This document shows positions 6,714-16,180 of a stretch of DNA of 64,000 bases, piece by piece. A program made the position numbers and the translations under genes. The DNA lies in NCBI GenBank assembly GCA_016795365.1, contig JAEUHN010000001.1, positions 62,001 through 126,000 on the forward strand, read 5' to 3'. This DNA is from Verrucomicrobiaceae bacterium (GTDB lineage Bacteria; Verrucomicrobiota; Verrucomicrobiia; Verrucomicrobiales; Verrucomicrobiaceae). Every line of letters starts with the position of its first letter. Within the stretch, counting starts at the first letter, position 1. Under the pieces are notes generated by a model, which was not told where the DNA came from, searched no databases, and saw nothing but the letters and a program-made list of their open reading frames with translations.

Positions 6714-8603
6714 ATGCTTCGCCTCATCGCTGTCCTTCTTTCGTTCGCCAGTCTGTGCCTCGCCGCGCCCAAACCGAACATCCTGGTCATTTACTCCGAT
6801 GATCACGGCTGGGCCGATCTCGGGGCGCAAGGCGTGAACGCGGACATCCGCACGCCGAACCTCGATCAACTCGCGCGCGATGGCGTTCGCTTTGCGCGTG
6901 GGTATGTGAGTGCGCCGCAATGTGTGCCGTCGCGTGCCGGTGTGATCACCGGTCGCTACCAGCAGCGCTTCGGCGTCGAGGACAACAACAAGGGTCCGCT
7001 GCCGCTGGAGGAACTCACCATCGCCGAGCGACTGAAGCCGGCGGGTTATCTCACCGGCATGGTGGGCAAGTGGCATCTCGATCTCGGAGGCGACAAGAAG
7101 GACAAGGGCGAAGGCAAGGCGGCGCGTGCGATGCTGGAGCACATGCCGCATCGCCAGGGCTTCGATGAATACTGGCGCGGCGAGCTGCGGCAGTTCTTCG
7201 CGTCACATGACCTTCAAGGCAAGCCGTTCGCTGATGCGCCGCATCTCGTGACGGACAATCGCTTCCGCGTGGTCGTGCAGACGGAGGCGGCGTTGTCGTT
7301 CCTCGATCGTCGCGCAGTGAAGCCCGAGCAGCCGTGGTTCCTCTACCTCGCGTGGTTCGCGCCGCATGTGCCACTGGAGTCGCCGGAGCCGTGGTTCAGC
7401 AAGGTGCCAGCGAATCTGCCGATGGAGCGTCGTCAGGCACTCGCGATGATCGCGGCGATGGATGATGGGCTCGGTCGTGTGCGCACCAAACTTCGCGAGA
7501 TGAACGCAGAGAAGAACACGCTGATTTTCTTCGTCGGTGACAACGGTGCGCCTGTGAAACCTGGGCACTGGGATGGCTCGCTGAACGTGCCTTTGATCGG
7601 AGAGAAAGGCATGCTGACGGATGGAGGCATTCGCACGCCTTTCCTCGCTGCGTGGCCGGGCACGCTGCCCGCAGGCACGGTGTATCCGCATCCGGTGATC
7701 AATCTCGACATTGCAGCAACAGCGGTCGCGCTTGCCTACGGCAGCGAAGAGCCAAGGGCGAAGAGCGAAGAGGTGCGTGACGACACCTCGAAGTCTCCAG
7801 ACCTTTCTACGCTCTCTGCTCTCAGCTCTAAGCCCTTGGATGGCGTGAACTTGATGCCGTTCGTCACAGGCAAGAACCAAGCCGCGCCGCATGACTGCCT
7901 TTACTGGCGCTGGCGCTCGCAGGCGGCGGTGCTGGAGTTTCCGTGGAAGCTAATTCGGCTGGGGCCGGAGGAGCAGTTCCTCTTCGATGTCACTACACCG
8001 GAAGGCGAGACCAAGAACCTGCTCGCGCAGCATCCCGACATCGTCGCGCGATTGAATGCAAAGCTCAAAACCTGGAGCGATGGCCTCAAGCCACCGGGTT
8101 TGCCGACGGACATTCATCCGCAAGACGCGGTCTTCTTTGCCGATCACATCGACAAGAGGTTCGCGGCACTCGAAGAGAAGAAGCTGGCGGCTGAGCCCGG
8201 CACTGTGCGCGGCTGGATGTGCCGTGGCGGAAGTCTCGCGATCAAAGACGGCGCGCTAGTGGTCACGGCGGAAGAAGGTGGCAAGGGTAACACCTTCATC
8301 ACGAATTCACGTCTCGATCTCACGGGGCCGGTGACGCTGACAATACGCGCACGCTCGAAGCAAGGCGGCGCAGGCTTTGCGAGCTGGCGCACGAAGCAGC
8401 AGCCGGACTTCGATCCGAAAGCAAAGACCGCGTTCACCTGGCCCACGGATGGCGAGGTGAAGGTGGAACTCCCCGTCACCGGCAAGGTCATTCACGTTCG
8501 CATCGGTGTGCCGAAGAATGCGGCGTCGATCGACGTGTTGTCCATCACGCTCAGCCACGGTGCGGACAAGTCTCAGACCTGGGACTTCAGCAAGGCCGAG
8601 TGA
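6714..8603 (+). CDS. Secreted Cys-type sulfatase carrying an in-frame repeat insertion
   Basis: A 629-residue sulfatase from ATG 6714 (a TTG four codons earlier is possible) with signal peptide MLRLIAVLLSFASLCLA. Core motifs: YSDDHGW (D29, D30), formylglycine motif CVPSR (C70) with GRYQQRFG, GKWHLD, and FFVGDNGAP near residue 275. Just before the conserved LDGVNLMPF segment is a polar stretch of roughly 28 residues (SEEPRAKSEEVRDDTS...) that corresponds to a palindromic DNA repeat at 7752-7839 and is not expected in the family. The last 130 residues form a beta-rich domain similar to that of the sulfatase at 4047. Followed after 21 bases by a secreted hydrolase gene, so an operon is likely. 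Whether the insertion leaves activity intact is unknown; the frame is kept and the core motifs are whole. Confidence 0.92.
   Translation: MLRLIAVLLSFASLCLAAPKPNILVIYSDDHGWADLGAQGVNADIRTPNLDQLARDGVRFARGYVSAPQCVPSRAGVITGRYQQRFGVEDNNKGPLPLEELTIAERLKPAGYLTGMVGKWHLDLGGDKKDKGEGKAARAMLEHMPHRQGFDEYWRGELRQFFASHDLQGKPFADAPHLVTDNRFRVVVQTEAALSFLDRRAVKPEQPWFLYLAWFAPHVPLESPEPWFSKVPANLPMERRQALAMIAAMDDGLGRVRTKLREMNAEKNTLIFFVGDNGAPVKPGHWDGSLNVPLIGEKGMLTDGGIRTPFLAAWPGTLPAGTVYPHPVINLDIAATAVALAYGSEEPRAKSEEVRDDTSKSPDLSTLSALSSKPLDGVNLMPFVTGKNQAAPHDCLYWRWRSQAAVLEFPWKLIRLGPEEQFLFDVTTPEGETKNLLAQHPDIVARLNAKLKTWSDGLKPPGLPTDIHPQDAVFFADHIDKRFAALEEKKLAAEPGTVRGWMCRGGSLAIKDGALVVTAEEGGKGNTFITNSRLDLTGPVTLTIRARSKQGGAGFASWRTKQQPDFDPKAKTAFTWPTDGEVKVELPVTGKVIHVRIGVPKNAASIDVLSITLSHGADKSQTWDFSKAE
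7752..7839. repeat. 88-bp palindromic repeat inserted in frame in a sulfatase gene
   Basis: The ends are exact inverted copies, CCAAGGGC (7752-7759) and GCCCTTGG (7832-7839), each continuing into purine-rich GAAGAGC-type sequence (left GCGAAGAGCGAAGAG, right arm complement TTAGAGCTGAGAGCAGAG). Translated it gives the Ser/Glu/Lys-rich segment of the sulfatase. Related GAAGAGC arms occur at 16003-16180. Confidence 0.65.
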
Positions 8604-8624
8604 TATTCCTTTTCCATCCCACTC

Positions 8625-9872
8625 ATGAAACGTCTCTTTCTTCTTCTCGCTGCCTTCACGATGGCTCATGCCGATGACATCGTTGGCCCGTGGAATCTCA
8701 CCAAGCTGAAGTCCACTGTGCCCGTAATGAAGTGGGTGGATCAGTCGCATCCCGTTCATGCGCTGACTTACGCGGGAGAAAAGTATCTCGGCAAAGACAC
8801 GGAAGTCTTCGCCTTCTATGCCTCGCCGATCACGATTGGTGCGGCGAAGCCGGGTGCGAAGTTTCCCGGCGTGGTGCTCATCCACGGCGGTGGCGGCACC
8901 GCCTTCGCCGAGTGGGCGCAGCTCTGGGCCAAGCGCGGCTACGCGGCCATCGCGATGGATCTCAACGGCTCGCGTCCGCCGGAGCCGGAGTATGACGACA
9001 AGGGCATGGCGAAGAGCAATGCACACGATCAGAAGACCCGCACGCGCTTGCCGAATGGCGGCCCAGCGCATGGCCATCCCGAGAAGTTTGATTCCATCGG
9101 TGGCGACACCAGCGATGACTGGCCTTTCCACGCCGCCGCGAGTGTGATGCGTGCGCACTCGTTGCTGCGCAGTTTCGCTGAGGTCGATGCGGAGCACACG
9201 GCGGTCACGGGCATCAGCTGGGGTGGCTACACGACGTGTCTCGTCGCTTCACTCGACGATCGCTTCAAGGCTGCCGTGCCGGTGTATGGTTGCGGCTTTC
9301 TCCATCAAGGCGAGTCCGTGCAAAAGCCGAGCATCGACAAGCTCGGTGATCGCGCGGCGCTGTGGGTGAAGGAATACGATCAGGGCAGCCTGCTGCCGCG
9401 CTGCCATGTGCCGATCCTCTTCGTGAACGGCACCAATGACGTGCACTACGTGCTAGACAGCTACATGAAGAGCTACAGTGTGGTGCCCGGCGAAAAGCAC
9501 ATCCGCATCCAGATCAACATGCCACACGGTCATCCACCCGGCTGGGCACCGCAGGAGATCGGCTTGTTCATCGACACCTATTGCCGCGCCGGCACGCCGT
9601 TGCTTGAGCCATCAGCGCCGGTGATCGAAGGCGATCAGGTAAAGGTCTCGGTCAAGGCTTCGACGAAGATCAAAGAGGCGAAGCTGAACTACACGATCGA
9701 CACGGGCCTGCGCTCGAAACGAACCTGGAAGTCGGTGCCCGCCACTGTTACCGGCAACACCATCACCGCGCCCAAGCCACCAGCCGAGGCGAACACCTGG
9801 TATGTCGAAGTCACCGATGAACGCGGCGCGATGGTCAGCACACCGGTGCAGTTCACCAAACCTTCCTACTAG
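8625..9872 (+). CDS. Secreted alpha/beta hydrolase (acetyl-xylan-esterase / dienelactone-hydrolase-like)
   Basis: 415 residues with a short Sec signal (MKRLFLLLAAFTMAHA). The hydrolase core shows VVLIHGGGGT (oxyanion region, about residue 85), nucleophile elbow GISWGGY with Ser about residue 198, an FVNGTNDVHY acid region and MPHGHPPGW supplying the His. The last 85 residues form a beta-rich domain resembling the tail of PhoPQ-activated / CocE-like hydrolases. Families of this type deacetylate polysaccharides or hydrolyse esters; the position 21 bases behind a sulfatase gene suggests shared transcription and a role in the same substrate pathway. Exact substrate is unknown. Confidence 0.82.
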   Translation: MKRLFLLLAAFTMAHADDIVGPWNLTKLKSTVPVMKWVDQSHPVHALTYAGEKYLGKDTEVFAFYASPITIGAAKPGAKFPGVVLIHGGGGTAFAEWAQLWAKRGYAAIAMDLNGSRPPEPEYDDKGMAKSNAHDQKTRTRLPNGGPAHGHPEKFDSIGGDTSDDWPFHAAASVMRAHSLLRSFAEVDAEHTAVTGISWGGYTTCLVASLDDRFKAAVPVYGCGFLHQGESVQKPSIDKLGDRAALWVKEYDQGSLLPRCHVPILFVNGTNDVHYVLDSYMKSYSVVPGEKHIRIQINMPHGHPPGWAPQEIGLFIDTYCRAGTPLLEPSAPVIEGDQVKVSVKASTKIKEAKLNYTIDTGLRSKRTWKSVPATVTGNTITAPKPPAEANTWYVEVTDERGAMVSTPVQFTKPSY

Positions 9873-16002: not shown

Positions 16003-16180
16003 TTCAAGCGAAGAGCAGGGGGCTAAGAGCGAAGAGGAGCTGCGAGGTGAAAGGAAGTTGGCCACCCAACGCAACACCAATTCTGAAGCGACAGGACGAG
16101 ACCATCGACTCCAGCCACAAATCCTGAAATTGTCGCTCGCTCCCCGCCCTCTTCGCTCTTTGCTCTTCGCCCTACGCTTT
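16003..16180. repeat. Inverted purine-rich repeat (GAAGAGC family) in a divergent intergenic region
   Basis: The left arm (about 16006-16040) contains GCGAAGAGC and GGGGCTAAGAGCGAAGAGG; the right arm (about 16143-16175) carries the complement, CCCTCTTCGCTCTTTGCTC followed by TTCGCCCT. The arms resemble those of the repeat inside the sulfatase at 7752-7839, so both likely belong to one dispersed family. The right arm ends about 10 bases before the ATG of the FAD enzyme gene, leaving little room for a normal ribosome-binding site. Confidence 0.55.

Follow-up and report, generated by a model that had tools for sequence, protein, structure and literature searches.

Intervening sequences (IVSs) that carry an ORF for the protein S23p, or IVP, are known from the 23S rRNA genes of Coxiella and Leptospira and are cut out by RNase III. 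The protein family, PF05635, is named '23S rRNA-intervening sequence protein' and has no assigned function. Rickettsia palindromic elements (RPEs) measure about 150 bp and often lie in frame in unrelated genes; the members of an RPE family have a sequence and a conserved peptide in common. The terminal inverted repeats of IVS elements form a long stem around the IVP ORF within the 23S rRNA gene, and in the Coxiella IVS the ORF is preceded by heptameric GACAGAT repeats (PMC4990558). RPEs are described as palindromic and in frame (PMC10969869). The heptameric GGGAATC repeats of Xanthomonas consist mostly of four 7-bp units; two convergent arrays lie close together in 70 cases in Xcc and 75 in Xac, and the repeats have been read as G-quadruplex repeats (PMC4692102). 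The available text of that paper draws no link to IVP. A species with these repeats also has a solved IVP, XCC0516 (2gsc).

Here a window of 64,000 nucleotides was analyzed (contig C6, positions 62001-126000) from a Verrucomicrobiaceae genome, not a Rickettsia, of 6.74 Mb in 55 contigs (G000). A sulfatase gene in this window holds an insert that we regard, with a probability of about 0.75, as a miniature IVP element that lacks the ORF and is tolerated as a surface loop; IVP would read the arms of such miniatures and move them in trans. The design is that of the IVS in 23S rRNA, with inverted repeats around an IVP ORF, but the elements described here lie scattered both within protein genes and in intergenic DNA, and ORF-less copies keep the reading frame. 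As with RPEs, a palindromic element lies in frame in protein genes, in 8 of 18 copies. Unlike RPEs, the copies have in common only periodic arms, which are tied to IVP across phyla.

In the literature searched, with most subscription journals outside its scope, no paper connects IVP with dispersed heptad repeats or with inserts that code for protein. Apparently new, as far as that literature goes, are the arming of IVP genes outside rRNA as a rule, the dispersal of ORF-less copies and their in-frame entry into genes. The element may show the role of IVP and of the puzzling heptameric repeats of bacteria. It joins three loose ends: PF05635, solved twice and Avd-related in its fold; the excess of heptamers in bacteria, long noted and unexplained; and palindromes through which proteins gain peptides. 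Should the link prove right, PF05635 has a substrate, the IVS in rRNA is one instance within a much broader mobile class, and a second, independent system of selfish hairpins that build protein segments stands beside that of Rickettsia.

An inverted repeat of 7-bp units in a sulfatase gene

The ORF at 6714-8603 on the plus strand was identified as a sulfatase gene from its homologues and from matches to solved sulfatases, the best being 6prm (E = 1e-68). Its translation contains the motif CVPSR, which was also used in the identification. Within the gene, positions 7743-7839 form a 97-bp inverted repeat. The left arm, AGCGAAGAGCCAAGGGCGAAGAGCGAAGAG (7743-7772, plus strand), consists of four RGCNNAG units and 2 nt. 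It is followed by a core of 32 nt (7773-7804) and by an inverted right arm (about 7805-7839) that reads CCAAGGGCTTAGAGCTGAGAGCAGAGAGCGTAGA on the minus strand and holds about four such units. The core has no match among 17 other cores or in the other DNA compared.

The initial annotation had described a palindromic element of 88 bases with exact ends. The element is real: CCAAGGGC occupies 7752-7759 and GCCCTTGG 7832-7839, a span of 88 bases, although the full repeat is wider and begins at 7743. As the annotation also held, the frame is kept, the 639 codons staying open across the insert, which translates as SEEPRAKSEEVRDDTSKSPDLSTLSALSS.

The arms stand out from the rest of the window. Allowing one mismatch at most, GAAGAGCGAAGAG has five matches in it, against a mean of 0.17 in dinucleotide shuffles. 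A scan of nine period lengths (4-12) gave three strong runs of period 7, two of which are the arms of the insert; the third belongs to a second copy (16007-16178) and is one of its arms. Folded as RNA, the insert has z = -2.45. An Rfam search of positions 7000-9000 returned nothing relevant.

Empty sites in related sulfatase genes

The segment at 7743-7839 is an insertion. Homologues of the gene range downwards from the orthologue in a genome of the same genus (G001), which has 95% identity up to residue 341 and 81% from residue 374. Between these segments the orthologue has 33 bp where the gene here has 114, so that the net gain is 81 bp, or 27 codons, and the insert takes the place of a few native ones. 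The gain had been put at about 28 residues rich in Ser, Glu and Lys; it is 27, and Leu belongs to the list. Alignment with homologues, the check that had been proposed, agreed with an insertion: the segment is missing in nine of ten, and in the tenth (G004, 46% identity) that position is taken by an insert of unrelated sequence, which has a hairpin of its own. In 6prm, four residues (351-354) stand where the sulfatase here has 29; this is the loop preceding LDGVNL.

The loop insert of the G004 homologue (L084) holds a GTAG-type hairpin, AGTAGCCCTCTTGCTCCGCAAGAGGAGC, a REP-like repeat that is read as protein.

Empty orthologous sites bear directly on the possibility that there is no element and that a fast-evolving, low-complexity loop has codons that look repetitive. 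This is true of a single arm in UvrA and possibly of single arms in signal peptides. For paired copies it is already contradicted, both by these empty sites and by the paired inverted arms in intergenic DNA and other phyla, and we find it barely credible.

The UvrA arm had been considered as an insertion and was rejected, the G001 loop being nearly as long without the arm. Other single arms (L066, L113, L116, L124, L131, L132 and L137) fall on signal peptides in sulfatases and further secreted proteins, encoding LFALCPSL on the other strand. Single arms in genes, those in signal peptides included, may be convergent.

Dispersed copies in the genome

Arm searches of the genome gave 40 loci, and these and the window were scanned for paired arms. 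Eighteen unique paired copies were found, eight of them in frame in genes. Conservation of the segment in homologues and the lack of a second copy had been named in the initial annotation as evidence against it; neither was observed. In all 18 copies the purine-rich AGRGC strand runs inward from both sides, and in none outward. Two more same-strand neighbours are parts of compound loci (L062 and L067). The same scan gave 18 single arms, one of them the left arm of an IVP element (L067).

The arms nearly always have four units. Comparison of the NN positions between the two arms of a copy gave identity in 8 of 64 cases, where shuffling predicts a fraction of 0.171, and at these positions neighbouring units within arms are identical in 10 of 100. 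Thus neither arm copies the other, templating of one arm by the other is not supported, and the units are not fresh tandem duplicates. The idea of a common core was also rejected: the cores, of 24 to 112 nt, are unrelated apart from short matches, such as a 14-mer common to the cores of L048 and L068 and also present in L227/L296.

The same observations weigh on an origin in place, by which replication slippage and template switching would have produced the heptad arrays as simple sequence repeats (SSRs) and chance or selection the hairpins. Such an origin would be in keeping with the over-representation of heptamers among SSRs in many bacteria (PMC4692102, PMC4679880) and with arms elsewhere that are long perfect arrays. 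It is at odds with the nearly constant four units, the low identity of adjacent units, the inward polarity of every copy, the recurrence of the AGAGC unit in many phyla and the clean empty sites (L058 and L046/L174, below). We consider it quite unlikely.

The second copy in the window (16007-16178) has the same arms around a core of 112 nt and lies in a gap 5' of an ORF with its ATG at about 16185. It sits exactly at a synteny break with G001: its flanks match two different G001 contigs and in G011 lie close together.

Other heptads (AGAAGTG, AGCACCG and AGAACCG) form long direct arrays at L053, L065 and L074 of G000. At L053 the array continues from an AGAGC arm, as if the units change type along it. 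In Fibrella rubiginis (L258) and F. aquatilis (L269), AGAGC-type arms enclose one and the same perfect hairpin core, formed by GTGGCTGACGC and its complement.

Copies in frame and reuse of sites

The eight in-frame copies lie in the sulfatase gene and in seven PSD1 (DUF1553, PF07587) paralogues, in a genome with 70 PF07587 matches. All seven PSD1 copies occupy one loop, after 'TYRQ' or a similar motif and before 'RRLDAE..RD'. Among the PSD1 genes matched by a loop pattern, which leaves many unmatched, loops without the element mostly have 22-25 residues and those with it 35-47. In the noncoding copies 14 of 60 frames are open. That all eight coding copies are open, against about a quarter of frames, points to selection against the rest.

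Six of the seven element-bearing PSD1 genes have a clear orthologue in G001. The orthologue of L046 (L174) has a short, empty loop and thus a clean empty site. Four others (L161, L170, L173 and L186) hold period-7 repeats of other sequence, in L161 an inverted GATTTAC-type pair, while L185, on contig C228, has two perfect short hairpins in frame, GGCGCTTTCGAAGCGCC and GGGCGGTTGAAAACCGCCC. Runs of the GGAGCAN type are present in several G001 PSD1 loops. The PSD1 loop accepts several kinds of repeat.

Nine noncoding copies were traced in G001 with queries made of the joined flanks, and eight sites were found. The site of L058 is clean and empty, with 4 bp against 141. Those of L060, L063, L056 and L050 hold repeats of other units, as judged by eye for L063 and by a run test as well for the rest. 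The site of L059 has 44 bp and no repeats, and those of L042 and L062 hold, by eye, apparent decayed remains of the AGAGC type. Between the sister genomes, other repeat types reuse the sites. At the sites compared the flanks are not sharp and the loops have diverged, so that a target-site duplication is not readable there.

The initial annotation had likened the element to RPEs. The likeness stands insofar as a palindrome is dispersed, lies in frame and works alike. Nevertheless, it is not an RPE: there is no common core or peptide, the 7-bp arms are degenerate, arm types swap between sister genomes, and IVP (PF05635) elements in many phyla have these arms.

A PSD1 loop at C3:61914-62980 (L331) of the window's genome contains a short perfect hairpin, GCGGACACTCCTGTCCGC, in frame.

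IVP genes between arms of the same kind

The G001 site of L050 holds a 557-bp element in which GGAGCAN arms surround a PF05635 ORF (E = 8e-23); GGAGCAN arms flank the G001 IVP gene on contig C349. The resident IVP gene of the window's genome (C49:45763-46077; L396/L067) lies between AGAGC arms of 4 and 4 RGCNNAG units, the same design as the sulfatase insert. In five genomes of the family, inverted flanks with a score of at least 15 were found at 26 of 29 IVP loci; the controls gave 0 of 26 for sulfatase, 1 of 11 for UvrA and 1 of 25 for PSD1 loci.

RAYT (Y1) transposases, which would move the copies if they were REP/BIME elements, were compared in the same way. REP/BIME elements are likewise dispersed hairpins, and REP-like hairpins occur in the same kinds of loops; they differ in having no periodic arms and another partner protein. 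The genome has 10 Y1_Tnp matches, and 5 of 10 RAYT loci have large inverted flanks, as expected of BIMEs. These flanks are aperiodic, however, with a best lag identity of 0.28-0.36, and all 20 genomes tested have RAYTs, whether or not they carry AGAGC repeats. No RAYT partner was found beside the copies, the places of arms and of Y1_Tnp in the genome not being adjacent. The RAYT link was rejected on these grounds, and movement by RAYT is very improbable.

Terminal inverted repeats that beat all 60 shuffles are present at 98 of 112 IVP loci, or 97 of 111 distinct ones, L433 and L386 being one locus; the other 14 of the 112 have no significant terminal inverted repeat. The set comprises loci from five genomes of the family, from 31 genomes to which named loci led (one being identical with G011) and from five further relatives. 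Its relatives mark the window's genome as verrucomicrobial; among them, G011, of the same family, yields IVP hits identical to those of G062, the Verrucomicrobiaceae MAG in which L195 lies. It leaves out L384 because of its coordinates, L408 and L412 as below the Pfam cut-off, and L421, L422, L425, L431 and L435, at contig ends and with uncertain starts. The arm unit in the 98 loci is 7 bp in 67, 8 bp in 15 and 6, 9, 10 or 12 bp in 7; the remaining 9 are weakly periodic. In addition, eight of nine IVP genes in named records of cyanobacterial plasmids (nine examined of 15 records found; Geminocystis, Nostoc, Pseudanabaena, Calothrix, Stanieria and Anabaena) have inverted 7-bp arrays, the exception being Nostoc HK-01.

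An IVP element thus looks like a hairpin with terminal inverted repeats of degenerate short units, usually of 7 bp, the full form of which encodes PF05635. The sulfatase insert has stem-forming terminal inverted repeats, as IVP and IVS elements do, and its arms are of the same kind as those of the resident IVP gene. With 97 bp it has no room for IVP and is accordingly a miniature and not a full element, and it lies in a sulfatase gene, not an rRNA gene.

In Pseudanabaena galeata pPg_01 (L507) and Anabaena sp. 90 pANA02 (L510), heptad-armed genes annotated as encoding a four-helix-bundle protein (IVP) lie between cas6 and cas4.

AGAGC arms across phyla and co-variation with the protein

In the GTDB genome collection at least 117 stretches contain the paired AGAGC unit; for uniform bases, we estimate that chance would give about 0.03 matches. 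Verrucomicrobiota, Planctomycetota, Bacteroidota, Campylobacterota, Nitrospirota, Acidobacteriota, Elusimicrobiota and others are among the matches listed. IVP is encoded in 32 of 33 AGAGC-bearing genomes checked and in none of 14 control genomes; the single miss (L199/G065) looks like a chance AGAGC match. As IVP is also encoded in 10 of 12 relatives without the exact AGAGC pattern, its presence alone does not discriminate, and it was set aside as a weak marker of AGAGC-bearing genomes.

In G000, G058, G071, G073, G075 and G087, IVP genes are flanked on each side by an AGAGC arm of three units or more; IVP genes between AGAGC arms were also recognized by eye at L211 (Acidobacteria) and L212 (Nitrospirae). 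The arms were usable at 93 IVP loci, and among these the similarity of the arms rises with the identity of the proteins (Mantel r = 0.313 at p = 0.0005, the lowest value that 1999 permutations can give); a control with one arm reversed gave r = -0.099. Among distant pairs, that is, from different genomes and not both in the window's family, IVPs of at least 65% identity have a mean arm similarity of 20.2 (19 pairs). The mean is 6.4 for IVP pairs below 35% identity (2927 pairs) and 7.2 for pairs in the same genome. After those of G001, the IVPs closest to that of the window's genome are AGAGC-armed and come from a Nitrospirae MAG and an Elusimicrobia MAG. Such co-variation is what specific recognition of the arms would predict, though it is not proof, as linked inheritance of one element would also give it.

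Short copies with inverted ends that lie in frame would also fit an ordinary MITE, or an RPE-like element, that owes its movement to an unrelated transposase and has IVP as a mere passenger in some copies. Like a MITE, the insert is short, inverted-ended and non-autonomous, and its ends are common with a longer coding element; the longer relative of a MITE encodes a transposase, whereas here it encodes IVP, a helical bundle. That IVP has no catalytic fold, and that the genome has other transposases (the Y1_Tnp matches), speak for the passenger role. It sits poorly with IVP being inside such ends at 98 of 112 loci, with arms that follow IVP and not the genome (7.2 within genomes against 20.2 for similar IVPs of distant genomes) and with the lack of a common internal sequence. 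We hold it to be unlikely.

Fold of IVP and proposed mechanism

A model of the Nitrospirae IVP (mean pLDDT 91.9) matches the solved IVPs, which have five chains each (2gsc, Z = 19.5; 2rld, Z = 18.2). It also matches Avd, alone (4dwl; Z = 15.4, 1.6 Å) and in the reverse-transcriptase particle of a diversity-generating retroelement (8ub7; Z = 15.5, 1.7 Å), an entry whose title names a ribonucleoprotein. The rows after Avd in the structure search are clearly lower, with Z = 12.2 at 7.5 Å. As modeled, IVP therefore folds like Avd of diversity-generating retroelements, with a common four-helix bundle at 12% identity. Avd binds RNA and reverse transcriptase. IVP has no nuclease or recombinase fold and so cannot be the whole machinery.

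In the preferred reading, the miniature in the sulfatase gene would have arrived as follows. IVP, an Avd-like bundle with five-chain solved relatives, probably recognizes its own arms, and would bind their 7-nt-periodic stem as RNA or single-stranded DNA. It would help to copy arm-bearing segments to new places, so that miniatures are moved in trans. The intermediate would be a copy in RNA or single-stranded DNA, carried by IVP, and the polymerase or reverse transcriptase would be borrowed. In genes, the survivors would be frame-keeping copies in surface loops, in the sulfatase the loop before LDGVNL, where the insert would simply be translated and act only as a loop of 27 residues. Against reading the insert as a miniature, the arms within one copy are unlike, which ordinary transposition does not predict.

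A wider version of this mechanism is put forward tentatively, as a possibility that we rate well below the miniature reading itself. IVP elements would be mobile hairpins across phyla, in which a ring of Avd-type, RNA-binding IVP reads the 7-nt-periodic stem, each unit of it with about 5 paired and 2 free bases, and recruits a reverse transcriptase or replication enzyme. Arms and protein would co-evolve, and miniatures would seed intergenic hairpins and new protein loops, explain orphan heptameric repeats and reuse sites with changing arms.

As a separate observation, a 37-kb contig of a viral collection, IMGVR_UViG_3300044960_000747 (L365, L366 and L368-L370), holds at least seven paired AGAGC elements, an unusually dense set.
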